Source: a virus
Length of the DNA stretch: 26,296 nt
Virus record (IMG/VR): IMGVR_UViG_3300020470_000180
Span: 1-26,296 of that record
Strand: one strand, 5' to 3'
Positions 1 to 26,296 of this stretch are shown here, in pieces. A program made the position numbers and the translations under genes. The number at the start of each line of letters is the position of its first letter. The first letter of the stretch is position 1. The notes beneath the pieces were generated by a model, which did no database searches, was not told the origin of the DNA, and saw only the letters and a program-made list of their open reading frames with translations.

Positions 1-2
1 AA

Positions 3-431
3 CCATTAAAACGGCAATTCTTAGCTGATTTAAAAAAATTAGGCGGTGTAGAACATATCGCTAATCGTATATCGGATGGCGATACTTTTACGGCGATTGC
101 GAAGGAATTTGGTTTAAGCCGTAATTTTATGACGACAGTATTATATAAAGACCCAGAGGCGAAGGCATTATTACAATCCGCTAAAAAGGAACGCTCTAAC
201 ACTTTAGCCGAGCAGTGCCTCGATATAGTCGATAATGTAGACCCATCCCCCAATGAGATAAGTAAGGCGCGTGAGCAGGCATCTGTTCGTAAATGGCTTG
301 CGTCTTGTGAGAATCCGGAAACGTATGGTCAAAAACAATCGGCGGTGACGATAAATATAGGTGATTTGCATTTAGATGCGTTGAGGAATGCGAAGGCAGT
401 CGGTAATGCAAAAATTATCGAAAACGAATAA
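3..431 (+). CDS. terS: Terminase small subunit (5' end outside window)
   Basis: The frame is open from the left edge, so the true start lies upstream; 142 residues are visible. An N-terminal helix-turn-helix-like stretch (ISDGDTFTAIAKEFGLSRNF, about residues 24-43 of the visible part) is followed by a helical region and a C-terminal RKWLASCENPETYGQK. That last motif is typical of Sf6 gp1-like terminase small subunits, which recognise the packaging site and feed DNA to the large subunit. The large subunit gene follows about 170 bases later, which supports the call. An internal ATG at 129 would cut the helix-turn-helix and is unlikely to be the start. Family assignment is from motif and context, not a search. 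Confidence 0.8.
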   Translation, partial: PLKRQFLADLKKLGGVEHIANRISDGDTFTAIAKEFGLSRNFMTTVLYKDPEAKALLQSAKKERSNTLAEQCLDIVDNVDPSPNEISKAREQASVRKWLASCENPETYGQKQSAVTINIGDLHLDALRNAKAVGNAKIIENE

Positions 432-609
432 ATTAGAAGAATTTCTAAAGGTTAAGTATGACTCCATTATTATGCTTGGAGTTAGGCAGGGGGATATTAC
501 GATTATGTCGACTAAAGACGAAATATTTACCACCGCTATATTGGATTGGGCGACTAATGAATGCTTGTTAGAGGTATTCCCAGAAATGAGGAGTGGTTAT
601 GTCCACTAA
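406..609 (+). CDS. Small hypothetical protein between the terminase genes
   Basis: A 67-residue mixed-charge protein of unknown function. It overlaps the end of the small terminase gene by 26 bases and the start of the large terminase gene by 11, as expected for a translationally coupled gene. I chose the ATG at 406 because AAGG at 393-396 lies 9 bases upstream. An in-frame ATG at 388 has GAGG only one base away, which is too close to serve. No signal peptide, membrane segment or known motif is visible. The gene is supported by position and start signals rather than by recognised homology. Confidence 0.55.
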   Translation: MQKLSKTNKLEEFLKVKYDSIIMLGVRQGDITIMSTKDEIFTTAILDWATNECLLEVFPEMRSGYVH

Positions 610-2017
610 TCCTTTTGAAGATTTCATGGAGAGGTATGGGGACGACCCTGTATTATTTGTAAAAGAGGTTATAGGTGTTGAGCCATTTGATTATCAAGCC
701 GAGTTATTAAACGCGGTTAATGAGGGAACACGCAGATTATCTGTCCGCAGTGGTCATGGCACTGGGAAATCAAGTTGCGCGAGTTGGTTAATGTTATGGT
801 TCTTATTAACCAGATATCCGGTTAAGATAGTGACAACTGCGCCTTCGTCGACCCAACTATTTGATGCACTTTTTGCCGAGTTGAAAGCGAACACAACCAA
901 ATTACCGGACACACTTCGCTCTTTGATTAACGTAAAATCGGACAGGATTGAATTAGTTTCCGCACCGAGTGAGGCTTTTATATCGGCAAAAACCTCTCGT
1001 CCGGAACAACCAGAGGCATTAGCCGGTGTTCACGCATCCGGCGGTAATAGGGCATCCGTATTATTAGTCGTCGACGAGGCAAGCGGTGTCCACGAAAAAA
1101 CCTTTGAGGCGAGTGCCGGTTCTATGTCCGGACATAATTGTGTAACCTTATTATTATCCAACCCAACTAAAAATTCCGGTACTTTTTACGAAACGCATAT
1201 GAGTCCGACTTCAAGTTGGTGGCGACGTAAATGGTCGTGTATGGATAGTCCGTTAGTAACGGATGAATTTATCGAGGAAATGAAAGAGCGATATGGCTCT
1301 GAGAGTACGCAGTTTGCGGTTAGAGTTTTAGGTGAATTTCCTAAAGTCGATGATGATACGATAATACCTTATCATTTATGCGACTCGGCTCGTAATAGGG
1401 ATGTCGAGGAAAGTCCGGTCGCGACAGTTGTCTGGGGATTAGATGTATCGCGATTTGGTAACGATTCATCCGCTTTATGTAAAAGGCGCGGTAATACTAT
1501 AATCGAGGTTATGACTTGGAAGGGACTTGATTTAATGGAGTTATGCGGTCGAGTAAAAGCCGAATATGACGCTATTATGTCGCCGACTGATTTACCGGAA
1601 ACAATATTTATAGATTCAATAGGATTAGGTTCTGGATGTGTAGACCGATTAGCTGAGTTAGGATTACCGGCGGTCGGTATAAATGTTTCTGAGTCACCGG
1701 CTATGAAATCTAATTATACTAATTTAAGAGCCGAATTATGGTTTAAATTAAAATCCTTTTTAGAAAACCGCGACTGTAAATTACCACGCGATGATAAGTT
1801 AATTAATGAGATGATTGCGGTTAAATATAGTTTTGCCTCGAATGGTAAGGCAAAAATAGAGAGCAAAGATGAGATGCGTAAACGAGGATTAAGTTCTCCG
1901 GATAGGGCAGATGCTCTTTGCTTAACAATGGCTCACGATAATGTGGTGGCTTTAAAAGGCGGTCATAGAAGTCGTTGGTCAAAACCACTTAAACGAAACT
2001 TGAGAGGAGTAGCATAA
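599..2017 (+). CDS. terL: Terminase large subunit
   Basis: ATP-driven packaging motor and DNA-cutting nuclease, 472 residues, within the usual range. Visible motifs: Walker A RSGHGTGKSS at about residues 50-59, Walker B VLLVVDEASG at about 154-163 (catalytic Asp159-Glu160), and the coupling motif LLLSNPT at about 184-190. The C-terminal RNase H-like nuclease follows, with GLDVSRFGND at about 280-289, an acidic FIDSIGLGSG near 340 and DRADAL near 435. The ATG at 599 is preferred over the in-frame GTG at 593 because GAGGAG (588-593) ends 5 bases before the ATG. The stop overlaps the next start (TAATG). All key residues are present and the gene looks intact. Confidence 0.96.
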   Translation: MSTNPFEDFMERYGDDPVLFVKEVIGVEPFDYQAELLNAVNEGTRRLSVRSGHGTGKSSCASWLMLWFLLTRYPVKIVTTAPSSTQLFDALFAELKANTTKLPDTLRSLINVKSDRIELVSAPSEAFISAKTSRPEQPEALAGVHASGGNRASVLLVVDEASGVHEKTFEASAGSMSGHNCVTLLLSNPTKNSGTFYETHMSPTSSWWRRKWSCMDSPLVTDEFIEEMKERYGSESTQFAVRVLGEFPKVDDDTIIPYHLCDSARNRDVEESPVATVVWGLDVSRFGNDSSALCKRRGNTIIEVMTWKGLDLMELCGRVKAEYDAIMSPTDLPETIFIDSIGLGSGCVDRLAELGLPAVGINVSESPAMKSNYTNLRAELWFKLKSFLENRDCKLPRDDKLINEMIAVKYSFASNGKAKIESKDEMRKRGLSSPDRADALCLTMAHDNVVALKGGHRSRWSKPLKRNLRGVA

Positions 2018-2091
2018 TGCCAAGAGGGACAGGAACTTATGGGACTAAAAAAGGACGTCCACCTAAACCAAAAGGCGGTAAAAAGAAGTGA
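2017..2091 (+). CDS. 24-residue basic AT-hook-like peptide
   Basis: The ATG overlaps the terminase stop (TAATG at 2015-2019) and the TGA overlaps the next GTG start (GTGA). GAGAGGAGT just upstream supplies a Shine-Dalgarno sequence. The product contains KKGRPPKPKGGKKK, whose basic GRP core resembles an AT-hook, a short minor-groove DNA-binding motif. From memory, very short proteins of this type occur after the terminase in other marine phages, but this could not be checked. Seen: tight coupling on both sides, a ribosome site and a motif-like sequence. Inferred: the product binds DNA. It could instead be a leader peptide that couples translation to the next gene. Confidence 0.6.
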   Translation: MPRGTGTYGTKKGRPPKPKGGKKK

Positions 2092-3197
2092 GCCTATTAA
2101 ATCTATTTGGTGACGACGCTGATTTTTTTACCGGTAAAACACCGGAGTCACGCGCAAGAGGTGTTGGTCAAATTGCTTGGGAGTCTATTCCGTTAATTTC
2201 TGAGGCGGTCACCTTTAGAGATATTAAAAACGAATTAAGTAAAAAAAATCCAAATTGGGGTGTTATCGCTATGTTAGGCGGTGCAGGATTATTAGGTTTA
2301 GTGCCTTTAATCGGAGATGCGTTAGGCACTACAGTAAAGAAAAGTATTAAAAAAGCTAATAAGGTTGAATTAACAGAAAAGCAAAAAAACGCGCAGGAAA
2401 TAATCGACCTTTTAAAATCTGGTGATGCTAAAAAAGTAACAAATGAAATGCTTAAAAACGCAGACCAGAGATATTTATTTGAAAACTATGATTTGCCTAT
2501 GGATACTCAATCACGCATGGAAAGAGCAAAAGAAATGGGTTTTGATGAAGATGCTTTTCATGGTACGGATTACGATTTTAAATCCTTTTCAAATTTTCCT
2601 ACATTTATGTCAGACCAACCGGCAGTCGCAGATACTTATACAAATTTTTCAGATATAGATAGTGGTGCAACCGGATTGATTTTACCATTAAGAGTACCAG
2701 AGGCTAATAAAGACCTGCCTTATTTGGAAGTATTTGGGAAAGGAGAAAATTGGAGTAATTTAGATAAAAATCTTGAAGTATATGACCCTAGTCTTGGAGA
2801 AACAGATTTAGATACAGTTGTAAGTATGCGTAATCCACAAATGAGTGAGGGATTTTTGGGTGCTACTGATGGCACTTACACTACTAAAGATATTACATTT
2901 ACTGAAAGAGAAGGCAGAGCAAATGCAGTTATGCCATCCACAAATAAGGGTGTAATATTTCATGATATTGTAGACAGAGGTGGTTTTGGTTATTCTCATT
3001 TATATGATGACAAATTACATAATGCACCATCTCAAGTAAGAGTGGAATTTGACCCAAAAAATATAAGGTCAAAATTTGCTCGTTTTGACCCTAGATTAGC
3101 ACATCTTAAAGATTTATCCGCAGGAATACCGATAGGACTTCTTCCATTTATAGATATGGAGAAACTATTAGAAGAAAAAGAGGTTAAAGATGATTGA
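2088..3197 (+). CDS. ADP-ribosyltransferase-like (polyvalent protein type) phage protein
   Basis: A 369-residue protein starting with GTG that overlaps the preceding stop. Residues about 56-80 form a Gly/Leu-rich hydrophobic segment (VIAMLGGAGLLGLVPLIGDA), possibly a membrane-active hairpin. The second half resembles the ADP-ribosyltransferase fold found in phage polyvalent proteins: DAFHGTDYDFKSF (His158-Gly-Thr), FMSDQPAVADTY (Tyr184) and a closing QVRVEFDPKNIRSKF (about 316-330). The family transfers ADP-ribose from NAD+ to a target. Here the third catalytic position is not obvious, so activity is uncertain. It lies between the terminase and the lysis and portal genes, in the late operon. 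The target is unknown, and the product may be packaged or act late on the host. Confidence 0.65.
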   Translation: MSLLNLFGDDADFFTGKTPESRARGVGQIAWESIPLISEAVTFRDIKNELSKKNPNWGVIAMLGGAGLLGLVPLIGDALGTTVKKSIKKANKVELTEKQKNAQEIIDLLKSGDAKKVTNEMLKNADQRYLFENYDLPMDTQSRMERAKEMGFDEDAFHGTDYDFKSFSNFPTFMSDQPAVADTYTNFSDIDSGATGLILPLRVPEANKDLPYLEVFGKGENWSNLDKNLEVYDPSLGETDLDTVVSMRNPQMSEGFLGATDGTYTTKDITFTEREGRANAVMPSTNKGVIFHDIVDRGGFGYSHLYDDKLHNAPSQVRVEFDPKNIRSKFARFDPRLAHLKDLSAGIPIGLLPFIDMEKLLEEKEVKDD

Positions 3198-3663
3198 CCC
3201 TATTTCAGCTATTTCTGTAATAACCGCGAGTGCTAACGCAATATCTACCTCTATAAAAGCCGGTAAGGATGTTGCGTCATTATCCACTCCATTATCGAGA
3301 TACGCAAAGGCAGAGGCGGAGTTAAATTTTGGTGCTAACAGAAAAAAAAATTCTTTCCTCGCTAAGTTTACCGGTGCGGAGTCAACTGCGATAGATAGGT
3401 TTTTTAAACAAGAGGAGTTGAAACAAGCTCGCGATAAATTGAGGGAGACGTTTATGCTACACGGAAAACATAGCCAATGGCAAACTTTACAAAAAATGAT
3501 TGCAGAGGAGCGTGCCTTACATCGTGAAGAGTTACAACGCAAAGCCGAATTAAGAGACACGCTCTATACAATATTTGGAGTGGTAGTTTTAGGAATATTT
3601 TTCATAGCCGGTTCATTAGGAATTATCTTTTTAGCAAAATATCTAAAGGAGCAACAAGCATGA
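3190..3663 (+). CDS. Helical membrane protein with C-terminal transmembrane segment
   Basis: A 157-residue protein. The N-terminus is Ser/Ala-rich and mildly hydrophobic (SAISVITASANAIS). Residues about 60-120 are charged and probably helical or coiled coil. A strong membrane segment sits at about 126-150 (FGVVVLGIFFIAGSLGIIFL), followed by a short basic tail. AGAGG at 3179-3183 is the ribosome site, and the start overlaps the previous gene by 8 bases. The codons contain a run of nine A (about 3344-3352). It lies in a cluster of small membrane proteins beside the holin, so a lysis or envelope role is plausible, but the family is not recognised with confidence. Confidence 0.75.
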   Translation: MIDPISAISVITASANAISTSIKAGKDVASLSTPLSRYAKAEAELNFGANRKKNSFLAKFTGAESTAIDRFFKQEELKQARDKLRETFMLHGKHSQWQTLQKMIAEERALHREELQRKAELRDTLYTIFGVVVLGIFFIAGSLGIIFLAKYLKEQQA

Positions 3664-3854
3664 GTTTTATATTAGATGAGTGGCGCGTAATTCCGCGTCT
3701 AATGATGTTAGCGATTACAGTAATGTGCTTTTACGTTACTTGGTGGATGATAGGTTTACCAGACCCATCGATTAATCAGACTTCATTCGCGTCGATTATA
3801 TTTGGATGTTTCAGCGGTTGTTTTGCCGTATGGCTTGGTAATGAAAATAAATGA
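3660..3854 (+). CDS. Two-helix membrane protein, holin-like candidate
   Basis: A 64-residue protein with two hydrophobic stretches, about residues 14-31 (LMMLAITVMCFYVTWWMI) and 43-59 (FASIIFGCFSGCFAVWL), separated by LPDPSINQT. AAGGAG lies 8 bases before the ATG, and the ATGA overlap couples it to the gene before. The N-terminal DEWRVIPRLMML is a pattern I recall from small marine phage proteins, often placed near the lysis genes. Two membrane helices and tiny size fit a class II holin or a holin modulator. A 3-TM holin is also present nearby, so this may be an accessory protein. The function is inferred. Confidence 0.75.
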   Translation: MSFILDEWRVIPRLMMLAITVMCFYVTWWMIGLPDPSINQTSFASIIFGCFSGCFAVWLGNENK

Positions 3855-3937
3855 ATTGGTTAATTAATTTATTAGATAAATTATTTGCAAAAAATAAAGT
3901 TTTTTATTTGAGCGGAAAAAGGAAAAAAAATGGTTGA
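3851..3937 (+). CDS. 28-residue putative peptide bridging two membrane genes
   Basis: The ATG overlaps the previous stop (ATGA) and the TGA overlaps the next start, so it fills the gap exactly. The product begins with an amphipathic MNWLINLLDKLFAKNK and ends in a basic KRKK. There is no clear Shine-Dalgarno sequence, so expression would rely on coupling to the gene before. The region is A/T-rich, and chance open frames of this length are common, so this is a tentative call. Its neighbours are all small membrane proteins. Confidence 0.35.
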   Translation: MNWLINLLDKLFAKNKVFYLSGKRKKNG

Positions 3938-4148
3938 GCATATATTTTCTTATATAGTCCTGCCGGTAGGTGGATTTGTATGGCTACTTCATAGAAATCA
4001 AACAAAACATCAAACGCAGATAACTGTATTAGAGAAAATGTTTGAAACTATAAATGCTCAACATGATAGAGAAATTAATGAAATTAAGGAAACAGTAAAA
4101 GCAATATTTAAAAAGTTAGACAGTATCGAGCAAGAACTTAGAAAATAA
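3930..4148 (+). CDS. Small protein with N-terminal membrane segment and coiled coil
   Basis: A 72-residue protein. Residues about 4-20 are hydrophobic (HIFSYIVLPVGGFVWLL) and the rest is a charged helical coil (VLEKMFETINAQHDREINEI onward, with LDSIEQEL at the end). AGGA about 7 bases before the ATG serves as ribosome site. One N-terminal membrane anchor followed by a helix matches the topology of an inner-membrane spanin or a holin accessory protein. No lipoprotein partner typical of an outer-membrane spanin is seen nearby. The lysis role is inferred from topology and from the holin and endolysin 0.4-0.9 kb downstream. Confidence 0.7.
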   Translation: MVEHIFSYIVLPVGGFVWLLHRNQTKHQTQITVLEKMFETINAQHDREINEIKETVKAIFKKLDSIEQELRK

Positions 4149-4151
4149 ATT

Positions 4152-4562
4152 ATGTCTAATAATAACTTTGAGCATGGTAAACTTGGCGAGTTTATCTGTG
4201 CCACTCATTTACTTAAAATGGGTGAAAAAACAGAAATAGTTAATTTATCGACTATTGATTTAATAGTGCATAGAGATAGTCGTCTTATTAGAATCCAAGT
4301 AAAATCTAGTAGATATAAATTAAAAGATAATATGTCTAAGTTTAGAGGTTATCAGTTTTCTACTGTACACGGCGGAATAAAAAGACCCTTAACCGAAAAA
4401 GAGTGCGATGTTTTAGGATTTGTGGCTACTGACTTAGAACGAGTAATATTTAAACCGGCTAAAAACTTTAATCAAATAACTAAAAGGTTTGCAAAAAAAC
4501 ACTTCTTGCAAAATGACGTGGAACAAGCATCTTGGAATGAAACTATGGAGTCTATTCTATGA
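4152..4562 (+). CDS. PD-(D/E)XK nuclease-like protein
   Basis: A 136-residue protein whose first half has the order of active-site residues of the PD-(D/E)XK fold. GKLGEF carries Glu13, STIDLIV carries Asp36, and IRIQVKSSRY carries Gln49-x-Lys51 with the final strand. Gln in place of Glu in the [E/Q]xK motif is known in this superfamily, for example in Holliday-junction resolvase-like and PDDEXK_5-type proteins. The C-terminal half is basic and helical. There is little Shine-Dalgarno sequence, and the gene begins 3 bases after the previous stop. It sits among lysis genes, an unusual place for a nuclease. Possible roles are branched-DNA resolution for packaging, degradation of host or rival DNA, or a mobile insertion. 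Confidence 0.65.
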   Translation: MSNNNFEHGKLGEFICATHLLKMGEKTEIVNLSTIDLIVHRDSRLIRIQVKSSRYKLKDNMSKFRGYQFSTVHGGIKRPLTEKECDVLGFVATDLERVIFKPAKNFNQITKRFAKKHFLQNDVEQASWNETMESIL

Positions 4563-4972
4563 GTCTTATAACTACATTAATAGAACCGGTTAGCAAAATA
4601 TTAGATAAAGCTATACCGGATATAGATTTAAAAAGAAAATTAAGTCACGAAATATCAACTTTAGCTGAAAAATCGGCTTTAGAGGTAGCTAAAGGACAAA
4701 TGCAGGCTAATGTTGAACAAGCTAAACATCCTAGTCTATTTGTAGCCGGCGCAAGACCCTCAATAATGTGGATTTGCGCTTTAGGATTATTAACTCAGTT
4801 TTTTTTGATGCCGATTGCTGAATGGATAACAGTTATTTGGTATCCGGATATTACTTTACCAAATTTAAATACCTCTGAATTAACAACTTTAACATTATCT
4901 ATTTTAGGACTCGGAGGAATGCGGTCGTGGGAAAAAAGCAAAGGAGTCGCAAGAGAAAATATGAAAAAATAA
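4559..4972 (+). CDS. Holin, 3-TM family
   Basis: A 137-residue protein resembling the 'holin of 3TMs' family (PF11351), first described in gene-transfer agents. A helical N-terminal half (about residues 1-55) precedes FVAGARPSIMWICALGLL, then hydrophobic segments at about 68-85, 89-100 and 113-122, and the characteristic closing LSILGLGGMRSWEKSKGVA. Holins form inner-membrane lesions that release endolysin to the cell wall and time lysis. The start overlaps the nuclease stop (ATGA), with GGAG 9-10 bases upstream. The M15 endolysin follows, completing a holin-endolysin pair. Confidence 0.87.
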   Translation: MSLITTLIEPVSKILDKAIPDIDLKRKLSHEISTLAEKSALEVAKGQMQANVEQAKHPSLFVAGARPSIMWICALGLLTQFFLMPIAEWITVIWYPDITLPNLNTSELTTLTLSILGLGGMRSWEKSKGVARENMKK

Positions 4973-5106
4973 AACTATTAAAGTATAAAAGACGATTTTT
5001 GGGAGAAAGACATATGCTGATTGATAGAATAGGAGAGAAAAGAAGTGTTTATTTTCGGCAAAAAGTCTTTATCAAGGCTAGAAGGAGTCCATCCGGACTT
5101 AGTTAA
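4927..5106 (+). CDS. Candidate overlapping gene spanning the holin-endolysin junction (59 aa, very basic)
   Basis: A GTG at 4927, preceded by GGAGG at 4913-4917 (9-base spacer), opens a frame that runs through the end of the holin, the 72-base gap and the first 62 bases of the endolysin. The product is strongly basic at its N-terminus (GKKQRSRKRKYEKIK) and continues RRFLGERHMLIDRI. An internal ATG at 5014 also has its own GGGAG at 5001-5005. Two good ribosome sites and the fact that it fills the only gap in this stretch argue for a real gene. The A-rich sequence, which makes Lys/Arg by chance, and the out-of-frame overlaps argue against. Function unknown; it lacks the lipobox of a nested spanin. 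Confidence 0.35.
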   Translation: MGKKQRSRKRKYEKIKLLKYKRRFLGERHMLIDRIGEKRSVYFRQKVFIKARRSPSGLS

Positions 5107-5521
5107 AATATTTAAAAAGGCGATAGGTTATTCAGCTATCGATTTTGGAATTTCTGAAGGTGTAAGAAGTAAAAGTCGGCAGGCTCAACTTGTTAAAGCC
5201 GGTGCGTCGACCACTTTAAATTCAAAACATATTATCCAAGAGAGTACCGGTTTTTCTCATGCGGTCGATATGTACACAATAGTCGATGGTCGTGCTTGTT
5301 GGGAGTTGGATACTTATGCGGTAGCAGGCGAGTCTATAGTCAAATCGGCTAAAGAGTTAGGAATTAATAATTTATCATGGGGTGCTTGTTGGCATATTAA
5401 AGATGTAGCCGGTTGCGAAATGGGTTGTATGGATATGATACAGGATTACATATCGACACGCGCAAAACAAGGCAGGAAAGTTTTCATGGACGCTCCTCAT
5501 TGGCAACTTAATATAAACTAA
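5045..5521 (+). CDS. Endolysin, M15-type L-Ala-D-Glu peptidase
   Basis: A zinc peptidase of the VanY/M15 group that cuts peptidoglycan stem peptides, 158 residues. GTG start with AGGAG at 5031-5035. Family features: GVHPDLVKIFKKAI near the N-terminus, EGVRSKSRQAQLV (38-50), NSKH (His62) and SHAVDM (Asp75) as zinc ligands, a central LSWGACW, and APHWQL at the C-terminus (His152). His62 and Asp75 are 13 residues apart, longer than the compact SxHxxGxAxD form, but phage variants with an insert here are familiar. There is no signal peptide, consistent with export through the holin encoded just upstream. Confidence 0.9.
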   Translation: MFIFGKKSLSRLEGVHPDLVKIFKKAIGYSAIDFGISEGVRSKSRQAQLVKAGASTTLNSKHIIQESTGFSHAVDMYTIVDGRACWELDTYAVAGESIVKSAKELGINNLSWGACWHIKDVAGCEMGCMDMIQDYISTRAKQGRKVFMDAPHWQLNIN

Positions 5522-5718
5522 TGTGGATTCCTATTCTAATAGTCTGTCAATCTATTATGGCAGACTCTTGTTTAGTTATAACCGGCAGGGAGTTATTCCC
5601 AACTAAAGAAGAATGTTTTGAGGTATCGATACAAAAAGGCGAATTAGCTTATTCCCATCCTCAAGTTACAATGGTTAAACCTTTATGTCAGATAATTCCA
5701 GAAGGAGAAAAAACTTAA
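5521..5718 (+). CDS. Small secreted or membrane-anchored cysteine protein
   Basis: A 65-residue protein overlapping the endolysin stop (TAATG). The N-terminus MWIPILIVCQSIMA is hydrophobic and may act as a signal or anchor, but it has no basic n-region and no proper lipobox (Val precedes Cys9). Four cysteines (positions 9, 17, 32 and 56) suggest disulfides in an extracytoplasmic domain containing FPTKEECFEV and PLCQIIP. Similar short proteins after the endolysin are familiar from marine phages, but the function is not known. A role in lysis is inferred from its place only. Confidence 0.7.
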   Translation: MWIPILIVCQSIMADSCLVITGRELFPTKEECFEVSIQKGELAYSHPQVTMVKPLCQIIPEGEKT

Positions 5719-5858
5719 CTATAAAAAAAGTTAATCCGGTGGCGCGTGCTATGTTAATGAACCGGCAATCGCCGAAGATTGTAAAATCAAAAAAAGTTTA
5801 CTCAAGAAAACGATTTAAACGTCAAGATAAATTAATGGATGTAAAGGACACACTATAG
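5685..5858 (+). CDS. Small basic phage protein with NPVARAM and VKSKKVYSRK motifs
   Basis: A 57-residue, very basic protein beginning at ATG 5685, inside the end of the preceding gene (34-base overlap), and ending in TAG 5856-5858. It contains VNPVARAML, then a spacer and KIVKSKKVYSRKRFKRQDK. Short proteins with a near-N-terminal NPVA motif followed by a Lys/Arg-rich tail recur just before the portal or head genes in many podoviruses, as far as I recall; their role is unknown. The start lacks a good Shine-Dalgarno sequence, so translation may be coupled. The motif pair makes a real gene likelier than chance. Confidence 0.65.
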   Translation: MSDNSRRRKNLTIKKVNPVARAMLMNRQSPKIVKSKKVYSRKRFKRQDKLMDVKDTL

Positions 5859-5892
5859 TATTGATGCCACATTTGGTTCGTGGAGTAATTAT

Positions 5893-7974
5893 TTGGCAAA
5901 ATTAACTCCTTTAGAGGATGGTCAGCTAGAAAGTCTGGTCAGCGAGGCGATAAAGGACGCAGTAGACTTTATTGACAGTGAAATAGTCCCAGAAAGAGTA
6001 CTATCTCAGCAATATTATGATGGAAAAACACGACTTGGAGTCGAAGAAGGTCGTAGTAAAGTAGTTGCGACCAAGTGCAGAGACGCAGTTCGTTCACTTA
6101 AACCTTCACTTCTTCGTGTTTTTCTAGGACAAGCCCCACCGGTAGAATTTACACCTAATATGGCGGAAGATGTACCGGTCGCAGAGCAAATGACCAAATA
6201 CGTTCACTACAAATTAAATAAACTAAACTATTTCAAGCTATTAAGTAATGCTTTTCAAGATTGTTTAGTTAAAAGATTGGGGATTTTAAAGGTATATTAT
6301 GAAGATTTTAGCAAAACTGAAACACATACATATAGCGGTCTTTCAGATATTGAGTTTAATTATCTGGTTGCCGATGAAAATGTTACAGTACTTAACCATA
6401 ATCAGACAGTTTCTATGGAAATGGATAAAGCAACTGAGCAGGAAATTGAAAAATCTGTTCACGATGTCAAAATCCAAAGAATAACACCGGCAGGCGACTG
6501 TAGAATTGACTCTGTCCCACCAGAAGAGTGGTTTTGCGATAGAAATGCTAAAGATGTTGAAACTGCCTATATAGTAGGGCATCGAGTAAATAAAACAGTC
6601 GGTGAATTAGTTGAACAAGGATTTAATTTTGACGATATTCACCATTTGGACGCTATTAATGATGATTCATTAAATGATGCTGAATTATTTGCTAGAACCG
6701 GTTTTACAGAGGATAAAAAAGATTCTGAAAATAACATAGATATTACTTCTAAAAAAATAGGCATAACTGAGTGCTATATGAAAGTGGATGTAGACGGCAC
6801 TGGAGTGCCGGTTTTACACCAATTTATTATGGGCGGTAGTAATTACAAATTGTTAAATTATATGCCATGCGACCAACAACCTTTTGCGGTTTTCGAGTGT
6901 GACCCAGAGCCTCATACTGTTTGGGGTCGAAGTGTGGTCGCTATGCTATTTGACGACCAAGACGCGAGTACTTCTTGTTTAAGAGGAGTTTTAGATAATA
7001 TAGCATTATGTAATTCACCTAGATTAAGTGTAGTTGATAGCCAAGTTAATCTCGATGATGTACTAAATAATGAAATTGGTGCGGTTATCCGTACACGACA
7101 ACCTAATACAATTTCTCCTATATCGATACCATTTACTGCCGGTAATACTTTAGGTGCTATGCAGTACCTAGACCAAACCATCGACCAAAAAGTCGGTGTT
7201 AGTGCGTCTAGTGTAGGATTAAATCCAGATGTTTTACAATCAACTACAAAAACGGCGGTCGACCATCATATAGCAACGGCTCAAGGGCAAGTAGAAACTA
7301 TAGCTCGTAATTTAGCTGAAGGCGGTATGACTCAGTTATTTAAAAAAATGATGAACCTCATTATTAAGCATAGAAAAGGTGATGAGGTTATGCGGATGAA
7401 TAATAATTATATACCGGTAGACCCTAAATCATGGAATGCCCATTTAGATTTACAAGTTTCGGTCGGATTAGGGACTGGTAAAATTGAAGAAAAGCAAATG
7501 ACTCTTCAGCAAATATTACAAATACAACAGACTATTTATCAAGGATATGGCGCAGGAAATGGATTAGTAAATTTAAGCGGAATAAGGAATTGTTTAACGG
7601 ACATATTAGCTAATAGCGGTATAAGAAATGCTGATAGATATTTTAGTCCAATGACCCCAGAAATAGAGCAACAGATGATGGCGATGGCTCAACAACAAGC
7701 ACAAAATCAGCCTCAACCAATCGACCCTGCGCAGGCAGTTATGCAAACTGAACAAATAAGAGCGCAGGCAAAAATGCAAAGCGATATGGCTAAGTTAGGA
7801 CTAGAAAGAGAAAAAATGATGCTAGCCGACGATTTAAAACGAGATGAGTTAGACCAAAATCTATTATTAAAAGCAGGCGAATTATTATCCAAGCACGGAT
7901 ATCAAGTAGACGTAAATGAAATTAAGCGAATGCAGGCGCAGGAAAGAAATAATGGACAAGTCGCTAGAAATTAG
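5893..7974 (+). CDS. Portal protein, P22-like
   Basis: A 693-residue portal, the dodecameric ring at the capsid vertex through which DNA is packaged and ejected. It starts with TTG: GGAG at 5882-5885 lies 7 bases upstream and no ATG or GTG is in frame between the last upstream stop (5842) and this site. Portal-like stretches include SVVAMLFDDQDASTSCLRGV, LNPDVLQSTTKTAVDHH and ARNLAEGGMTQLFKKMM. A Gln-rich, then charged helical C-terminus (about residues 590-690) follows, as in P22-type portals whose tails form a barrel. It sits directly upstream of the scaffold and capsid genes. Confidence 0.92.
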   Translation: MAKLTPLEDGQLESLVSEAIKDAVDFIDSEIVPERVLSQQYYDGKTRLGVEEGRSKVVATKCRDAVRSLKPSLLRVFLGQAPPVEFTPNMAEDVPVAEQMTKYVHYKLNKLNYFKLLSNAFQDCLVKRLGILKVYYEDFSKTETHTYSGLSDIEFNYLVADENVTVLNHNQTVSMEMDKATEQEIEKSVHDVKIQRITPAGDCRIDSVPPEEWFCDRNAKDVETAYIVGHRVNKTVGELVEQGFNFDDIHHLDAINDDSLNDAELFARTGFTEDKKDSENNIDITSKKIGITECYMKVDVDGTGVPVLHQFIMGGSNYKLLNYMPCDQQPFAVFECDPEPHTVWGRSVVAMLFDDQDASTSCLRGVLDNIALCNSPRLSVVDSQVNLDDVLNNEIGAVIRTRQPNTISPISIPFTAGNTLGAMQYLDQTIDQKVGVSASSVGLNPDVLQSTTKTAVDHHIATAQGQVETIARNLAEGGMTQLFKKMMNLIIKHRKGDEVMRMNNNYIPVDPKSWNAHLDLQVSVGLGTGKIEEKQMTLQQILQIQQTIYQGYGAGNGLVNLSGIRNCLTDILANSGIRNADRYFSPMTPEIEQQMMAMAQQQAQNQPQPIDPAQAVMQTEQIRAQAKMQSDMAKLGLEREKMMLADDLKRDELDQNLLLKAGELLSKHGYQVDVNEIKRMQAQERNNGQVARN

Positions 7975-8215
7975 AGCAAATCAATGCAAAGAATTATTAA
8001 ATTCTGAGGCTTTTAGAGATGCTATGCAGAAAGTCAAAGATGCACAAATACACGCATTTTTGTCCTCGAGCAAAGATGATACCGAGACCAGAGAAAAGGC
8101 ACACTCTATCATTTTAGCTCTTTCATCCATTGAGTATGAACTTATCAACGTAATTACAGATAAGGAAATGCTCGATAAAAGAGAAACCAAAAGAAAAGGA
8201 TTAGCACCTCGATGA
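7952..8215 (+). CDS. Small helical head-region protein
   Basis: An 87-residue charged, all-helical protein (MDKSLEIRANQCKELLNSEA onward, ending KRETKRKGLAPR). I chose ATG 7952, which has GGAAAG 5-6 bases upstream; a further in-frame ATG at 7916 lacks such a signal and would lengthen the overlap with the portal to 59 bases. The start overlaps the portal by 23 bases and the stop overlaps the scaffold start (ATGA). Proteins of this size between portal and scaffold are common in podoviruses. A role in head assembly is inferred from position only. Confidence 0.7.
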   Translation: MDKSLEIRANQCKELLNSEAFRDAMQKVKDAQIHAFLSSSKDDTETREKAHSIILALSSIEYELINVITDKEMLDKRETKRKGLAPR

Positions 8216-9174
8216 CAGAGACTAATTTTGAAGAAGGTTCAGTAGAAGAGGCAACCGCGTCACTTTTAGGTGAGCCGAAAGTAGAAGATAATCAGACTGC
8301 CGAAAATGAAAGTGTTGAGGCAACTGATGAAACGACTCCGGACGTAGCCGTTGATGATAACGTCCAAGCAGAGAATACTAACGAGGAAAACATTACACCG
8401 GAAGTTGAAGAACCGGCTGAACCTCAAACATATACTGTTAAGGTAGATGGTAAAGAGGAACAGTGGACACTCGACCAACTTACCCGAAGTGCTAGTGGTC
8501 AATCATATATTCAGAAAAAAATGGGTGAAACTGCTCAAATTCGTAAAGAGGCAGAGGAGATTCACAATCAATTAAAATTAGAGCGTGAGCAACTTCAACA
8601 AGCTATGGAGACTTACAAAAACCAACTTGCTCAAAACCAATTAGAAAAGCCGGATATTGCTTTAGCTAAAACTGACCCTATTAAGTATATGACTCAGCAG
8701 GCTGAATACAATGATGCTATGGAAAGGCAGAAAGTATTAGCTGAAGAAACTGAGAAATTACAAGTGGAACAGACTAAGCAAAACAAACAAGTTATGGAGG
8801 CATATTTAAAGGAACAAGCCACCATACTTCAAAAGCATATTCCAGAATTTTCTAAGTCGGAATCGGCTACCGCATTAAGAGGTAAGTTAATATCGACCGG
8901 TGGAGAGTACGGATTTACTGAGCAGGAGATTGCAAGCATAGTTGATAATCGTGCTATACGAATATTAAACGATGCTCGAAAATGGCAGGAGTTACAAAAA
9001 TCTCAAGGTAAGATTGAGGAAAAAGTCAGCCAAGCAAGACCTCTTACTATTAAAGCCGGCTCTAAACAAGTTGGGACAGTTGGTAAGTCACAAAGAATAA
9101 AAGAGGCGACCGCTAATCTTCAAAAGTCTGGAAGTGTCGATGACGCTACCAAATGGCTTTTGGCAACATCTTAA
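8212..9174 (+). CDS. Scaffolding protein (putative)
   Basis: A 320-residue protein immediately before the capsid gene, where podovirus scaffolds lie. The first 80 or so residues are very acidic and low in complexity (Glu, Asp, Thr, Asn). A short beta-like YTVKVDGKEEQWTLDQLTRS follows, then a long Gln/Glu/Lys-rich coiled coil at about 110-210 and a basic C-terminal part (PLTIKAGSKQVGTVGKSQRI). This acidic-coil-basic plan is typical of scaffolding proteins, whose basic C-terminus binds the coat protein. No protease motif is visible. The start overlaps the previous stop (ATGA). Assigned by composition and synteny. Confidence 0.82.
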   Translation: MTETNFEEGSVEEATASLLGEPKVEDNQTAENESVEATDETTPDVAVDDNVQAENTNEENITPEVEEPAEPQTYTVKVDGKEEQWTLDQLTRSASGQSYIQKKMGETAQIRKEAEEIHNQLKLEREQLQQAMETYKNQLAQNQLEKPDIALAKTDPIKYMTQQAEYNDAMERQKVLAEETEKLQVEQTKQNKQVMEAYLKEQATILQKHIPEFSKSESATALRGKLISTGGEYGFTEQEIASIVDNRAIRILNDARKWQELQKSQGKIEEKVSQARPLTIKAGSKQVGTVGKSQRIKEATANLQKSGSVDDATKWLLATS

Positions 9175-9186
9175 AATGAGGAAAAT

Positions 9187-16607: not shown

Positions 16608-16617
16608 GGAGTAATTA

Positions 16618-20057: not shown

Positions 20058-20263
20058 GGTTAAGTTTACCGCCAGATGAGTATGACGTAGGACACGAAAT
20101 AGAACGCAACCGCGAACTAGAGGCGGAAGATTTGATGAATAGAAAAAAGAGGCAAGACGTTGAAATAGCTTTACCGGAAAGACTTATTTTATCGAGTCCA
20201 AATGGAAACCGATACTCAATAACAGTATCTAACGCAGGAAGTATAGTGGTGACGCAAATATGA
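20054..20263 (+). CDS. Small conserved tail-module protein
   Basis: A 69-residue protein overlapping the genes on both sides by four bases (ATGA). It has an acidic, helical N-terminal half (LPPDEYDVGHEIERNRELEA) and a beta-rich C-terminal half (ERLILSSPNGNRYSITVSNA, then GSIVVTQI). The ending RLILxSPNGxRYxxxVxNxG is familiar from small genes after gp10-like genes, with no known function. It is probably a virion or assembly protein. Confidence 0.72.
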   Translation: MRLSLPPDEYDVGHEIERNRELEAEDLMNRKKRQDVEIALPERLILSSPNGNRYSITVSNAGSIVVTQI

Positions 20264-20616
20264 TAGATTTAAATAAATGTAAAAAATTAATAGAGCAGGC
20301 ATTGGAGTACGCAAATGGGACACATACAACGGATGATATTTTTAGAGGGATTGAGAAGAGGCAATACCAATTATGGGATGCAGAAAAATCATGCCTTATT
20401 ACCGAAATTCTGGAATATCCTCAGAAAAAAGTTTGCCATGTGTTTTTAGGAGCAGGCGATTTAGAAGAAATAATGGGGATGCACGAGTCTGTTATAACTT
20501 GGGCAAAAGCGTGCGGATGTACAGAGTTGACTGTTAGTGGACGAGCCGGATGGCAAAAACCATTAAAGAAAGAAAATTGGAAACACGCATATACTACATT
20601 ATACAAGGAGATTTAA
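20260..20616 (+). CDS. Conserved phage protein, possibly GNAT-like
   Basis: A 118-residue protein with THTTDDIFRGIEKRQYQLWD, a strand pair CLITEILEYPQKKVCHVFLG, and EIMGMHESVITWAKACGCTE, then LTVSGRAGWQKPL. Proteins with this order (DDIFxGIxxGxYQLW ... RKxxHVFLxGG ... WAKxxGCxxxxxxGRxGW) occur next to ejection protein genes in many podoviruses. The alternation of strands and helices suggests a small acetyltransferase-like fold, but no acetyl-CoA motif can be pointed to with confidence. It overlaps the previous gene (ATGA). Confidence 0.7.
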   Translation: MIDLNKCKKLIEQALEYANGTHTTDDIFRGIEKRQYQLWDAEKSCLITEILEYPQKKVCHVFLGAGDLEEIMGMHESVITWAKACGCTELTVSGRAGWQKPLKKENWKHAYTTLYKEI

Positions 20617-21276
20617 ATGGGTAAGGGTTCATCACAAACAACAGAAGTTAAAATACCTAAATGGCAGGAAGATGAAATTAAATCAGCTTTAGAAAAAGCT
20701 AAAGGATTAAACTTACCTTATGCGCCTTATATGGGCATTACCTCAGTAGCACCAAGAGAGGGCAGGGATGCAAGTTTAAATATGGCTCGAAGTGCATTTG
20801 GTTTACCGCAATATAAAAGCGCATTACCGACTCCGACAGAGATGGGTGGGATGAGAGGATATAGAGCCTATGACGTTTATGCGGATGCTTTAGAAAGATT
20901 TAAGCAACAAAACCCAGACCACTACGCTCGTATCGTGGCTCAAACTGCTCCTCAAGGAACTATTAATCCGGTTAGTGGTATGCCTTTAACCGCAGGAGAT
21001 ACCTCTGCGACACCGGTTAATGCAACTCCACAAAACGCAGTAACAACCGCTGATGTTGTTAGGAATACCGGAAGTGATGATAATTGGTCAGCACCGGCTC
21101 ATACCGGCATGGATTTATTAGATTGGATTAGTGGGACTAACAATGAACAAGATACAGAAACTTTAGATGCTATGAGTGGATATAATACAGATAATAGGTC
21201 ACAAAGTGAAAAATGGGACGATAAAGATACCGCACCAGATAAACCTAAATCATTAATTGATTACTTTTTTGGATAA
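20617..21276 (+). CDS. Putative internal virion protein, N-terminal type
   Basis: A 219-residue protein starting directly after the previous TAA with AAGGAG 7-8 bases upstream. It opens MGKGSSQTTEVKIPKWQEDE, the form seen at the N-terminus of larger podovirus internal proteins, followed by LPYAPYMGITSVAP and a RGYRAYDVYADALERF segment. The C-terminal third is Asp/Thr/Asn-rich and low in complexity (SDDNWSAPAHTG among others). In relatives the matching N-terminus and the next gene's content can lie in one protein, so this pair may be a split form. A DNA ejection role is inferred. Confidence 0.65.
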   Translation: MGKGSSQTTEVKIPKWQEDEIKSALEKAKGLNLPYAPYMGITSVAPREGRDASLNMARSAFGLPQYKSALPTPTEMGGMRGYRAYDVYADALERFKQQNPDHYARIVAQTAPQGTINPVSGMPLTAGDTSATPVNATPQNAVTTADVVRNTGSDDNWSAPAHTGMDLLDWISGTNNEQDTETLDAMSGYNTDNRSQSEKWDDKDTAPDKPKSLIDYFFG

Positions 21277-21286
21277 GGAGACGTAA

Positions 21287-21997
21287 ATGGCAACCGCAGG
21301 AAATAATATATATAATCAAGTCGCCGGTGGGATGACGGATGCTCAAAAGGGCATACAAAACTCGATGGCATACCAACCTGCACAGTTTTCGCAGGATGCT
21401 TTAAATCAGTATATGAATCCATTTACATCTCAAGTAATAGATAACTCGTTAGCTAATTTGGACACTGCGAGGCAAAAGGCAATAACCGGTGGTCAAGCTA
21501 AAGCCATGAGTAGTGGTGCATATGGTGGTTCTCGTCACGGAGTAGCGGACTCACTTACAAATGAGGCATTTGGAAGACAGGCAAGTGACTTAGCATCTAA
21601 TTTAAATATGGCGAATTACAACCAAGCTCTAAACCAATTTAATACTGCAAATCAAGTAGGATTTCAGAATGCTCAAAATCAATTAGCCGGTGCAGGAGCG
21701 ATGAGTCAGTTAGCTAATTTAGGATTCGGAATGGGTCAGAATTTAGACAATCAAGAATATCAAAGGTCATTACAAGACCAAATGGTGCAACAGAATTTAG
21801 TAAATCAAGCTCAGCAAATGTTTAGCGGATTTACTAATCAAGGGACGCAAAACTTATCAACTCTATTATCCACGTTAGGCATAGTTCCAAGTCAAGGCTC
21901 AACCACTCAATCACAACAACACGGATTGTTTGATTATTTAACTTTATTAGCCACGAGTCTCGGTGGGATGAATAGGGCAGGAGTTAAACTCTGGTAA
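21287..21997 (+). CDS. Putative DNA ejection (internal virion) protein
   Basis: A 236-residue, Gln/Asn/Ala-rich helical protein. QYMNPFTSQVIDNSLANLDT and the following GAYGGSRHGVADSLTNEAF are hallmarks of podovirus ejection-type proteins, which leave the head with the DNA and form a channel across the envelope. The middle is a long run rich in NQAxxQ. The C-terminus is more hydrophobic (HGLFDYLTLLATSLGGMNRA). AAGGAG precedes the ATG by 7 bases; the stop overlaps the next start (TAATG). Confidence 0.75.
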   Translation: MATAGNNIYNQVAGGMTDAQKGIQNSMAYQPAQFSQDALNQYMNPFTSQVIDNSLANLDTARQKAITGGQAKAMSSGAYGGSRHGVADSLTNEAFGRQASDLASNLNMANYNQALNQFNTANQVGFQNAQNQLAGAGAMSQLANLGFGMGQNLDNQEYQRSLQDQMVQQNLVNQAQQMFSGFTNQGTQNLSTLLSTLGIVPSQGSTTQSQQHGLFDYLTLLATSLGGMNRAGVKLW

Positions 21998-23604
21998 TGG
22001 CTTATGTACCGGCACAAAACGTAACGAATAACATAGCTTTCTTAATGGAAGAAATGAATATGCCTTATGAGTTTGCCGTTGGTTACACCGCTAATCAAAT
22101 GGCTGAAAGTGGTAATTTACTCGACCCATTTGCGAGGAATCCAAAAGGCGGTGCATATGGTATAAGTCAATGGCTCGGTGGCAGGCAAAAAAAATTAAAT
22201 GCTTTTAGAAAAACATTACCGGCGAATACTCCAGAATTTATAGTTCAACAAAAATTCTTTCAACAAGAATTAACACCGAATAGTCCTTATGCCGATACTT
22301 TATCTATTAAGAGGCATAACGAATTATTAAATCGTTATTACGCAAGTCAAGGTATGACTATGCCGGATATTGTGCAGGGATTAGAAAAAGCATTTTTTCG
22401 CTCTAGACCTAGAGGCTATGAAAGTGAATTAACTCCAGAGGAAGAAGAGGCATTTTTTAACTCTATGGGTCAACGAATGAAATTCGCAGAATTATTAACC
22501 GGTAAAAATTTAGGAGCAGGATATTATAAAATGATGAAAAATAGAGATATAAACCCAATGGATTTAATGAATTTTGTGAATGCACCGCGTAAAACATTAA
22601 TGGGTTCATTAAGTGATTTATTTAGCGATAATCAAGGAAAACAAGATAGGTCATTAGATAGAGCCGGATTATTTAATGATTTAGCTTTAGCATTTAATTC
22701 TATGCGTCTAAAACCAGACCAAAATTTGGCGATGGGTTTAACAGAGCAAAGGAAGGCTGATACTGAATTAGGATTATTTAGAGATAATAATAATAAAACA
22801 ATTGATTATTTAAGAAGAACCGGCAGAGCGGATTTAATGCCACTAGTTGGCACTATGGACGCAGATGATTTAATTGAGTTAGCTCAAACTAATCCTAATG
22901 AATACTCAAAAGAACAACAACAATCTATAATGGCATTAAGCAAGCAGGCTTATGATGTATTAGAGTCATATAAAGAAAGACGAGATGCTTATAAAACAAT
23001 TATGTTGGGATTCGAGCAAGGTGGTGGTATTTCAGACTTCACGCTTGTAACACAATATGCAAAAATATTAGACCCACGCTCAGCGGTAACAGATGGTGAG
23101 GCAAGTGCGATAGCAGGAGCAGGCGGTGTTACTAGACAAGTTATTCAAGATATAGCTCAAAATGTAGCTATAGGAAAAGCCGACCCAAGCAAAAGAAATA
23201 TAGGCTTTTTGCCACCATCTGTAAGAAGGGATATAGCAAATTTAACTATAAAAGCATATAAGTCTGCGTCTGAAGAGGCGATTAATTTATTAGAAGGCTT
23301 TTATGAACAAGGCAGAGCATTTGGTGTTAAAGCCGGCGATGAATCATTTATTTATAGAAATACTAATCCACAAGGAACGGACTGGCGGTCGGCTTGGACA
23401 AATGTTGAGGGCATGGATGAAACATTTAGATTGACCCCATTTATTGATATAAATGCAAAATACCCAGAGGCTCCAGAAGAATTTATCAAGAAATCTACAA
23501 CCGGTGAAAATGCGGTAACAGTAGAGCGAGCAAAAGAAAAGTGGACTGAATTAAGTGTTGCCGAAAAGAGAGCAATATTAAGAAGTTTAGGATTACCAAA
23601 TTAA
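21997..23604 (+). CDS. Internal virion protein with N-terminal lysozyme domain
   Basis: A 535-residue protein. Residues about 20-80 resemble the phage tail lysozyme family (PF18013): FAVGYTANQMAESGNLLDPF, where Glu37 of MAESG is the likely catalytic acid, followed by GGAYGISQWLGGRQKKL (GISQW at 55-59). Such domains open the peptidoglycan during DNA entry, as with T7 gp16, a different fold. The remainder is helical and contains FTLVTQYAKILDPRSAVTDG, a motif seen in other podovirus internal proteins. It overlaps the previous stop (TAATG), with another ejection protein candidate on each side. Confidence 0.82.
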   Translation: MAYVPAQNVTNNIAFLMEEMNMPYEFAVGYTANQMAESGNLLDPFARNPKGGAYGISQWLGGRQKKLNAFRKTLPANTPEFIVQQKFFQQELTPNSPYADTLSIKRHNELLNRYYASQGMTMPDIVQGLEKAFFRSRPRGYESELTPEEEEAFFNSMGQRMKFAELLTGKNLGAGYYKMMKNRDINPMDLMNFVNAPRKTLMGSLSDLFSDNQGKQDRSLDRAGLFNDLALAFNSMRLKPDQNLAMGLTEQRKADTELGLFRDNNNKTIDYLRRTGRADLMPLVGTMDADDLIELAQTNPNEYSKEQQQSIMALSKQAYDVLESYKERRDAYKTIMLGFEQGGGISDFTLVTQYAKILDPRSAVTDGEASAIAGAGGVTRQVIQDIAQNVAIGKADPSKRNIGFLPPSVRRDIANLTIKAYKSASEEAINLLEGFYEQGRAFGVKAGDESFIYRNTNPQGTDWRSAWTNVEGMDETFRLTPFIDINAKYPEAPEEFIKKSTTGENAVTVERAKEKWTELSVAEKRAILRSLGLPN

Positions 23605-23614
23605 GGAGAAAAAA

Positions 23615-25786
23615 ATGAGTGATGCCTTAGAAGATGATTCCGTACTTAACCAAGTTATCAAACAGATGCAGGAAGACGCTAAAAAAGAGATGGATTTGGA
23701 AGTGGAGAGGGGGGAATTAAGAGAAGAATATAATCCATTACAAACTATTATTAGAGGTTTTGGAGATATGCTTACATTTGGTAATATAGATGATATCGCC
23801 GGAACAGTAACAAATTTAAAATCTTTATACGATAAAGCCGGAGCGAGTGGTTTTTTAAATCCCACTACATGGAGCAGTGTTGGGGACGAAGGAGAAAAAG
23901 TTAAAGCATTGTCTCAACAAAAAAGCGAGGACTTACAAAAAGCATATCCAAATTATTATATGACAGGACAAGCCGGCGGTGTGGTAGCACCTATGGTTGT
24001 TCCATATGCAGGACAGATTAGAATTGCTAATGCTTTAAAAGAGGGAGTTAAATCTTGGAAGGCTTGGGCAACTGCTACTTCATTAGGAGTTACCGCCGAG
24101 TCATTAAATTTAATGGGACAAGATAAATTTAATTATGTAGAGGCTCTGCGAGACGGCACGATGATGGGTATTTTAGGATGGTCTATAGGCGGAGTGGGTA
24201 ATAGAATTGCACCGCCGGTCATGGATTTTATAAAAAGAACATTCGGAGATACTCTAAGCAACCGAGCTAGTGAAATGTTACTAGATGCTATTAAAAGAGA
24301 TGGAGTTTCTCCAGACCAAGCAATTGTGGATGTTATAAGAACTATGAAAAAAGAGGGATTAAGTCCGGTTGAGGCTAGTAAGGATTTAACGGATATGCTT
24401 GATAGTATAGCGAACAGTAATCCGGCAGTTATGAAACTAGTTAAATCATTACTTGAAGGGGACGAGTTATTAAGTACCTCTAAAATCAAATCTCGATTAC
24501 AAGGTGAATTAGCACCTAGTACAACTCCATTAACTAATATCGATAAATATTTTAATGATATAAAAAAGGAGATAGGGCAAAAACAAAAAGAGCAATATAG
24601 CAAAATTTTTACAACTTGGACTCAAAACGGAAATGTCCCACCTCAAGATTTAACAAATGCGGTGCATCACATACTTAAAAATGACCCAGATTTAGCTCAG
24701 ATATTATTAGGTAAAATTAAACGTAATAAACTTTATGAAAATGAAAAAGGTTATAGAAAAGTTAATGAATTTTTTAAAATAGGTGAAAAGGGCGAAATAG
24801 AATTTTTAGAGCCACCTAGTTTAGAGGCTATGGAAATAATGCGAAGGGCGATGGCAAAAAGAGCCACTAAAATATTTAAAAATCAATCGGACGCATTTGA
24901 TACAGATGATGCTAATATTTTTAACGATATTGAAAAATCATTAAGAGCTAAAATAGACGACGCATCTGAGCAAGCATCTAAAAAAGATAAAATAGACTTA
25001 ACTATAGGTGGAATTAGAAAAAACACCGCCAATGAAAAGTTTGCATTAGAGCAATACGAAATTGGCAGAAAGTTATTTTCATCTGGAAATACAGATATAG
25101 AAAAAACAATGAATACTATTCAAGATGTAATAGATTCCGGTAACGAGCAGGCACTCAATTATTTAAAATTAGGTGTAATGAATAGAATTAATAATATGTT
25201 TTATAAGGCGCAATCATCTGCCGGAAGTGATTTAACAGAGCTAGATAAGTTTTTAGCTAAATTAGGAAAAACAAAAGATGGAGAGGCGCAATCAAGTGAG
25301 AGGTTAATTTACGAGGCTTTATTCCCAGACGCAGATATTACTAGCACCATGAAAATTGCAAAAAGAGCTTTGGAGTCTCGCAGAGTTTCTGGTGCTATAT
25401 TAGGAAATTCAGCAACCGCTAAAAGATTAAAAGGCGGTGAATTTTTAACTGCCGGTAATAAAATAAGTAGCGATATAACAGAGGCGGTAATTGATACGGC
25501 AACAATGGGCGCGCCGGTTAGAACATTATTTAATAAATTAACCGGATTAAAGAAAAAATATGGCGGTCAAATCAAAACAAGTGAATTATTAGATTTAGCT
25601 CGTTTTTCATTATCTAGGAATCCAGAATATGTAGAAAGAGTTTTAGGAATGTCTGATAAAAAAGCATGGGAGTCTATAACTCGATTAGCTAATAAAATAT
25701 ATGGTACTGCACCGGTAACTGTAGGAATGCTTGGTTCAAGTGCGGATTTTGATGTAGGACAGACTATGCCGATGAGAATGTTTTAA
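23615..25786 (+). CDS. Large internal virion/ejection protein candidate
   Basis: A 723-residue protein with GGAG 8 bases upstream of the ATG. An acidic N-terminus leads into FGDMLTFGNIDDIAGTVTNL. Then come Gly/Ala-rich, mildly hydrophobic segments (QAGGVVAPMVVPYAGQI at about 115-135 and LRDGTMMGILGWSIGGVGNR at about 175-195), which may be membrane-active, followed by long charged helices to the end. Large size, helix content, hydrophobic patches and position at the end of the virion operon fit an ejection protein. No enzymatic motif is recognised. Confidence 0.72.
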   Translation: MSDALEDDSVLNQVIKQMQEDAKKEMDLEVERGELREEYNPLQTIIRGFGDMLTFGNIDDIAGTVTNLKSLYDKAGASGFLNPTTWSSVGDEGEKVKALSQQKSEDLQKAYPNYYMTGQAGGVVAPMVVPYAGQIRIANALKEGVKSWKAWATATSLGVTAESLNLMGQDKFNYVEALRDGTMMGILGWSIGGVGNRIAPPVMDFIKRTFGDTLSNRASEMLLDAIKRDGVSPDQAIVDVIRTMKKEGLSPVEASKDLTDMLDSIANSNPAVMKLVKSLLEGDELLSTSKIKSRLQGELAPSTTPLTNIDKYFNDIKKEIGQKQKEQYSKIFTTWTQNGNVPPQDLTNAVHHILKNDPDLAQILLGKIKRNKLYENEKGYRKVNEFFKIGEKGEIEFLEPPSLEAMEIMRRAMAKRATKIFKNQSDAFDTDDANIFNDIEKSLRAKIDDASEQASKKDKIDLTIGGIRKNTANEKFALEQYEIGRKLFSSGNTDIEKTMNTIQDVIDSGNEQALNYLKLGVMNRINNMFYKAQSSAGSDLTELDKFLAKLGKTKDGEAQSSERLIYEALFPDADITSTMKIAKRALESRRVSGAILGNSATAKRLKGGEFLTAGNKISSDITEAVIDTATMGAPVRTLFNKLTGLKKKYGGQIKTSELLDLARFSLSRNPEYVERVLGMSDKKAWESITRLANKIYGTAPVTVGMLGSSADFDVGQTMPMRMF

Positions 25787-25914: not shown

Positions 25915-25938
25915 AAAAGCCACGCAAGTGGCTTTTTT
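25915..25938 (+). terminator. Rho-independent terminator of the late operon
   Basis: A perfect 9-bp stem, AAAAGCCAC (25915-25923) and GTGGCTTTT (25928-25936), closes a GCAA tetraloop of the GNRA type and runs into a T tract (25933-25938). It lies 61 bases after the last late gene. On the opposite strand the stem is followed by four T only, so it could also slow transcription coming from the right, though less well. Confidence 0.92.
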
Positions 25939-25991
25939 ATTGCAGAATCAAGTATTTAGAGTTATTTGTTAAAAAGGAAGGAATATATGAT

Positions 25992-26162
25992 ATGCCCAAT
26001 ATAACTAGATATAAAGCTAATAAAATGTGGAAAGAGTGGCTTAATGAACCTCGTAATTCCGGTGCTAAAAGATTAGTAAATCGAGAGGGAACTAATGTTA
26101 GACCGCTTAAAGAATTATTTACTATGAGTCTTAAATCTAAAGGTTTTAAAATAGTTAAATAA
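25992..26162 (+). CDS. Small basic protein after the terminator
   Basis: A 56-residue basic protein (opening MPNITRYKANKMWKEWLNEP, ending LKSKGFKIVK) with GGAAGGA 9 bases before the ATG. It is the only plus-strand gene past the terminator, so it needs its own promoter or read-through; no convincing promoter is seen in the 53 bases between. Its stop abuts the stop of the minus-strand gene. No family is recognised. The good ribosome site and intact frame support a real gene. Confidence 0.55.
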   Translation: MPNITRYKANKMWKEWLNEPRNSGAKRLVNREGTNVRPLKELFTMSLKSKGFKIVK

Positions 26163-26279
26163 TCATTTAATAAAAGCTATATAAATACATAATCCTATAA
26201 TTATTAGCTTTCCATAATCTAAGTCCCATTTCGTGCCTTCTCCGATTTTACTATTTATTTTCTCTTGTATTGTTTTCAT
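26163..26279 (-). CDS. Small membrane protein on the opposite strand
   Basis: A 38-residue protein reading leftwards: start at 26279, TGA at 26163-26165. AGGAG on the minus strand (26286-26290) is 6 bases upstream, a good ribosome site. The first half is charged (KTIQEKINSKIGEGTKWDLD) and the second is a single membrane helix (LIIIGLCIYIAFI) with a final Lys. It converges with the plus-strand gene at zero spacing. It is probably the last gene of a leftward operon beyond the window. Function unknown. Confidence 0.6.
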   Translation of the reverse strand: MKTIQEKINSKIGEGTKWDLDYGKLIIIGLCIYIAFIK

Positions 26280-26296
26280 TGCAAACTCCTATCTTG

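Follow-up and report, generated by a model that had tools for sequence, protein, structure and literature searches.

Recent loss of all GATC sites, with depletion of about 15 further short words, in a probable marine phage

The DNA analyzed here (the window) is the whole of IMG/VR record IMGVR_UViG_3300020470_000180, and a string search of its 26,296 bp found no GATC. Comparison with closely related phages showed that the loss of this site is recent, directional, selective, and confined to the window lineage. Depletion of the same degree was found for about 15 other short words. GATC and these words were probably lost by restriction-site elimination under host restriction-modification, and there is strong evidence that the purge is an adaptation of the virus to hosts cutting them.

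The record is an incomplete genome. The contigs of relatives reach about 36–41 kb, and the window is about two-thirds of a tailed-phage genome, with about a third lying outside the record. We take the sample numbers of several relatives to be those of ocean surveys, which makes the phage likely marine, and the window is a probable marine virus of bacteria. The following genes, all on the plus strand, were recognized:
3–431 (+), Sf6-like terminase small subunit, truncated 5′ at the contig end (Pfam PF20901, 1.7e-14)
593–2017 (+), terminase large subunit (phrog_2)
4152–4562 (+), small PD-(D/E)XK endonuclease-like protein upstream of the holin (PDDEXK_5 domain match)
4559–4972 (+), holin (phrog_3427)
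5045–5521 (+), endolysin (phrog_465)
5893–7974 (+), portal protein (phrog_1216, 5e-133)
8212–9174 (+), head scaffolding protein (phrog_3927)
9187–10155 (+), major capsid protein (phrog_1328)
11689–14142 (+), tail fibre; about 92% DNA identity to sister L003 as far as about 12878, with a different C-terminal part
17856–20057 (+), virion structural protein (phrog_3287)
21997–23604 (+), virion protein with a phage tail lysozyme domain (Pfam PF18013)

No integrase or anti-restriction protein was recognized in the window. Likewise, neither the window nor the 7.3 kb preceding the terminase in sister L016 contains a recognized methyltransferase gene, as would be expected if the phage is protected by avoidance. 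The upstream region of L016 encodes a LexA-type DNA-binding protein, and it also has a recombinase-like ORF for which neither a Pfam match nor a plasmid or phage match hinting at a host was obtained. The window DNA found no match in the phage collection searched, and a search of 84,980 genomes with portal and terminase profiles returned no close relative, only distant terminases of at most 52% identity (Paraburkholderia, Reyranella, and other Proteobacteria).

The absence of GATC reported in the initial annotation was confirmed against three nulls. The Markov expectation was 71–77 sites, dinucleotide shuffles (n = 100) gave a mean of 75.2 (SD 8.7), and codon shuffles keeping the proteins and the total codon usage (n = 150) restored GATC to a mean of 72.8 (SD 7.0), with a minimum of 53. 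Codon choice is indeed bent against the site, as had been noticed earlier. When Asp codons were split by the next base, those before C were GAC in 54 cases and GAT in none, while before other bases GAT (344) outnumbered GAC (102). Similarly, GGA was used for none of the 41 Gly residues before TC but for 200 of 605 elsewhere, ATC for none of the 64 Ile residues after a codon ending in G, and AGT for all 19 Ser residues after GA. Other palindromes are present as stated in that annotation (CATG 43, GTAC 58, AGCT 72, GCGC 42, CTAG 56, and TCGA 71). Its conclusion that the effect is specific to GATC was nevertheless wrong, as shown by the equal depletion of about 15 other words, for example GGCC (2 observed/47 expected), GCNGC (0/58), and CCCG (1/75).

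The comparison with close relatives that had been suggested earlier was made with five IMG/VR contigs that are 92–93% identical to the window in DNA over 4–12 kb. Each of these sisters carries 13–48 GATC, a count between about half and three quarters of that expected. Aligned with L003 (92.1% nucleotide identity), the window keeps none of the 32 GATC of L003, while 74% of tetramers overall are conserved. The changed positions are as follows:
63–12769, 41 positions homologous to a GATC of a 92–93% identical sister, all changed (sister alignments); examples are 63, 193, 918, 941, 946, 1643, 3498, 3675, 4333, 4923, 6424, 6871, 6901, 7171, 7420, 7723, 7831, 7852, 8473, 9799, 10003, 10713, 11987, 12070, and 12766
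14382–25737, 15 further positions in the right half homologous to a relative's GATC, all changed

When the right-half relatives are included, GATC is kept at 0 of the 70 window positions homologous to any relative's GATC. Most of the 41 sister sites were lost through one base; 32 of the changes are synonymous and nine alter an amino acid. All four positions of the site are affected by eleven types of change, of which T to C is the commonest (16; GAT to GAC for Asp), and the other types include A to G (8), C to A, C to T, and G to T. This spread, together with the predominance of synonymous changes, argues against a single mutational process, and many kinds of mostly silent single-base change are what selection by a sequence-specific nuclease predicts.

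The direction of the change was established with the more distant phage L019 as an outgroup. Where L003 and L019 agree on GATC, the ancestor very probably had GATC, and all 11 such sites were lost in the window lineage, where the loss among other ancestral 4-mers was 16% (binomial P = 2e-9). On the L003 branch, a comparable loss was seen for no word. CCCG likewise fell from 15 copies in L003 to one in the window. The divergence from the window at fourfold sites is only 18.7% for L003 and 13.6% for L115, indicating that the purge of GATC is recent rather than long-standing. The initial annotation had proposed long selection by a GATC-cutting host restriction system. That GATC has been selected against is well supported, a host enzyme cutting it being the simplest agent, but long selection is wrong for this site, as the 92–93% identical sisters keep GATC at homologous positions.

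To describe the other depleted words, each word was scored only where no stronger word explains it, and the list was not built from a greedy IUPAC motif search, which over-merged words. In the window, 19 words were found at P < 1e-5 with at most 12% of the expected count observed, the highest number among 66 sequences compared over the first 26.3 kb of each with a second-order Markov null, word counts being dependent on length and composition. In addition to those given above, the observed and expected counts were 0/47 for CCNGG, 0/45 for GGNCC, 0/42 for CCNNGG, 2/44 for GGNNCC, 0/40 for ACSGT (likewise 0/40 for ACCGT), and 0/23 for RCATGY. The non-palindromic words comprise CCCG, CCTGA (0/25), CCAGC (0/27), ACAGC (1/24), GAAGC (1/27), CCTCC (3/27), and ACGCC (1/18), while GANTC is at expectation (78/84). 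The set includes known Type II enzyme specificities, namely GGCC, GCNGC, CCWGG, GGWCC, GGNCC, RCATGY, and GGNNCC. About 16 of the 19 words are strong, and those put to the codon shuffle hold there too (observed versus mean: CCCG 1 vs. 54, CCTGA 0 vs. 43, ACCGT 0 vs. 33, and GGNNCC 2 vs. 33). Codon context may account for the remaining, weaker words CYTARG, GARYTC, and AGCCC.

The few surviving copies of two of these words are located as follows:
10189–10206, the only two GGCC (at 10189 and 10203); sisters L003 and L115 read GTCC/GCCC and GGAC/GGGC there
8483–8486 (+), the only CCCG/CGGG, also present in L003, L115, L016, and L019

The two GGCC are separated by 14 bases, and both are missing in L003 and L115; judged from these alignments they are probably new gains, perhaps reflecting relaxed selection on GGCC.

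Taken as restriction-site elimination, the data would be accounted for by an encounter of the window lineage, after its split from the sisters, with a GATC-cutting restriction-modification system. Selection would then have removed every GATC, mostly via synonymous single-base changes, while encounters with other specificities, at an earlier time or in different hosts, would account for the removal of about 15 more words, the majority of them missing in the sisters too. The phage would thus evade restriction by having no sites. We infer that restriction is the selecting agent, that a real enzyme stands behind each missing word, and that the hosts have or exchange many such systems. Site elimination is a recognized anti-restriction strategy of phages, typically of non-temperate ones, and the most avoided sites include GATC (PMC6286503). 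Against this explanation, several of the eliminated words are non-palindromic, a class that was rarely or never avoided in a survey of about 3,400 phages, in which only orthodox Type II sites were commonly avoided (PMC6286503).

Another GATC-directed defence, such as DpnI-like cutting of methylated GATC, phosphorothioation-linked restriction, or a BREX-like system, would equally select against the site, and the DpnI, DpnII, and DpnIII cassettes all target GATC (PMC12707154). Such defences are less common than Type II systems and nothing in the present data singles one out, so we regard this alternative as unlikely. Slightly less likely still is that methyl-directed mismatch repair by Dam/MutH selected against GATC, as proposed for enterobacteriophages. 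Phage phiX174 resembles the window in its complete loss of GATC, and adding sites alters its mutation rate (PMC5014478); T7 has only 4 GATC of 93 expected in its first 26 kb. However, Dam/MutH, the agent proposed for phiX174, covers GATC alone and is unable to explain the drop of CCCG from 15 copies in L003 to one, or the elimination of about 14 more words that are used by no repair system. Moreover, most of the relatives for which a host is named belong with Alphaproteobacteria, which usually lack Dam/MutH.

A site-specific nuclease of the phage itself, for which the PDDEXK_5 domain protein would be the candidate, could cut its own GATC. This is very improbable and was rejected, as the region of that gene is common to the window and GATC-bearing sisters: L003, L016, and L002, each with 27–48 GATC, match it collinearly at about 92% identity. 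Finally, a bias in mutation or composition, or an artefact of assembly or library, has a negligible chance of explaining the absence of GATC. Although Markov nulls can be misleading when words are GC-rich and degenerate, this explanation is refuted by the agreeing codon shuffle, by homologous positions that are substituted in many ways rather than deleted or broken, with intact reading frames, and by sisters of the same composition that have GATC.

Elimination by restriction, the explanation we prefer, has been defined numerically for lytic phages as an observed/expected ratio below 0.1 with an expected count above 15 (Rusinov et al. 2018, PMC6286503). By this definition GATC (0/77) and at least 15 other words are eliminated in the window. 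Elimination is uncommon per site, concerning 3.9–7.5% of phage-site pairs (PMC6286503). Compared with that survey, the window differs in having 16–19 words eliminated at once, non-palindromic ones included, and in that the purge is caught in progress between 92%-identical phages. Staphylococcus phage K also has no GATC (30-kb sample, 61 expected) but only three eliminated words (26-kb sample), in contrast to the 19 of the window. Escherichia phage T7, besides its GATC count of 4/93, is similar in its depletion of CCWGG (2/54), but has seven eliminated words and an anti-restriction protein. The numbers of eliminated words were seven in Helicobacter phage KHP30, six in Sinorhizobium phage phiM5, 14 in Pelagibacter phage HTVC106P, and 13 in Microcystis phage MJing1. 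The phenomenon is known, while the breadth and freshness of the purge and the fast turnover between relatives are unusual. No direct precedent for a complete site loss that separates closely related phages was found in the literature searched, which is not proof of absence.

The turnover of avoided words is evident from the relatives. The sisters also lack CCWGG, GGWCC, GCNGC (nearly), ACCGT, GGYRCC, RCATGY, and GGNNCC, but GATC and CCCG are not absent there. In L019, the terminase protein of which is 92% identical, only GCNGC, GGWCC, and one weaker word are eliminated, and GGCC, CCWGG, and CCCG are near expectation. L134 and L135 lack CCCG, CCTGA, CCAGC, ACAGC, GAAGC, and ACCGT and have CCWGG and GCNGC at or above expectation; for several words L131, L139, and L140 show the reverse. 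In the distant group L004–L015, GANTC and CCNGG are eliminated. It is quite possible, though tentative, that the clade has been selected by an unusually large and fast-changing set of site-specific defences, with at least 16 specificities including non-palindromic words of 4–5 bases and full elimination within less than about 19% fourfold-site divergence, and that the avoidance profile is a fast-changing record of the restriction systems met. If true, such profiles would tell which restriction systems a phage lineage has encountered, and the differing word sets of relatives could help to match uncultured phages to hosts via bacterial methylomes. Site avoidance is old knowledge, normally inferred from a single genome against a statistical null; with a purged genome and near-identical unpurged sisters, it can be measured how fast, in which direction, and at what cost in amino-acid-changing as opposed to synonymous changes a restriction site is purged from a wild phage.

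Several further observations were made among the relatives. The identity to L003 DNA stops at about 12878, within the gene for the tail fibre, as is typical of recombination breakpoints affecting host range. That phages with the window's tail fibre are also GATC-free was not supported, as L131, L135, L136, L139, and L140 have normal GATC. CCTGA, CCAGC, ACAGC, and GAAGC vary together across lineages (L016, L017, L088, and L135 versus L115, L024, and L131), while TCAGC and GCAGG remain common; the four words represent either a single degenerate specificity or a set inherited together. Unlike the window, phiM5 (L126; 0/86) and L004–L014 have eliminated GANTC, which is the word methylated by CcrM in Alphaproteobacteria. 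The words eliminated in HTVC106P (L128) include GCNNGC, CGAG, and CACG, although SAR11 bacteria are not known for many restriction systems. RCATGY is near-absent in most of the marine relatives examined, whatever other words they avoid, and its depletion may not reflect one restriction system.
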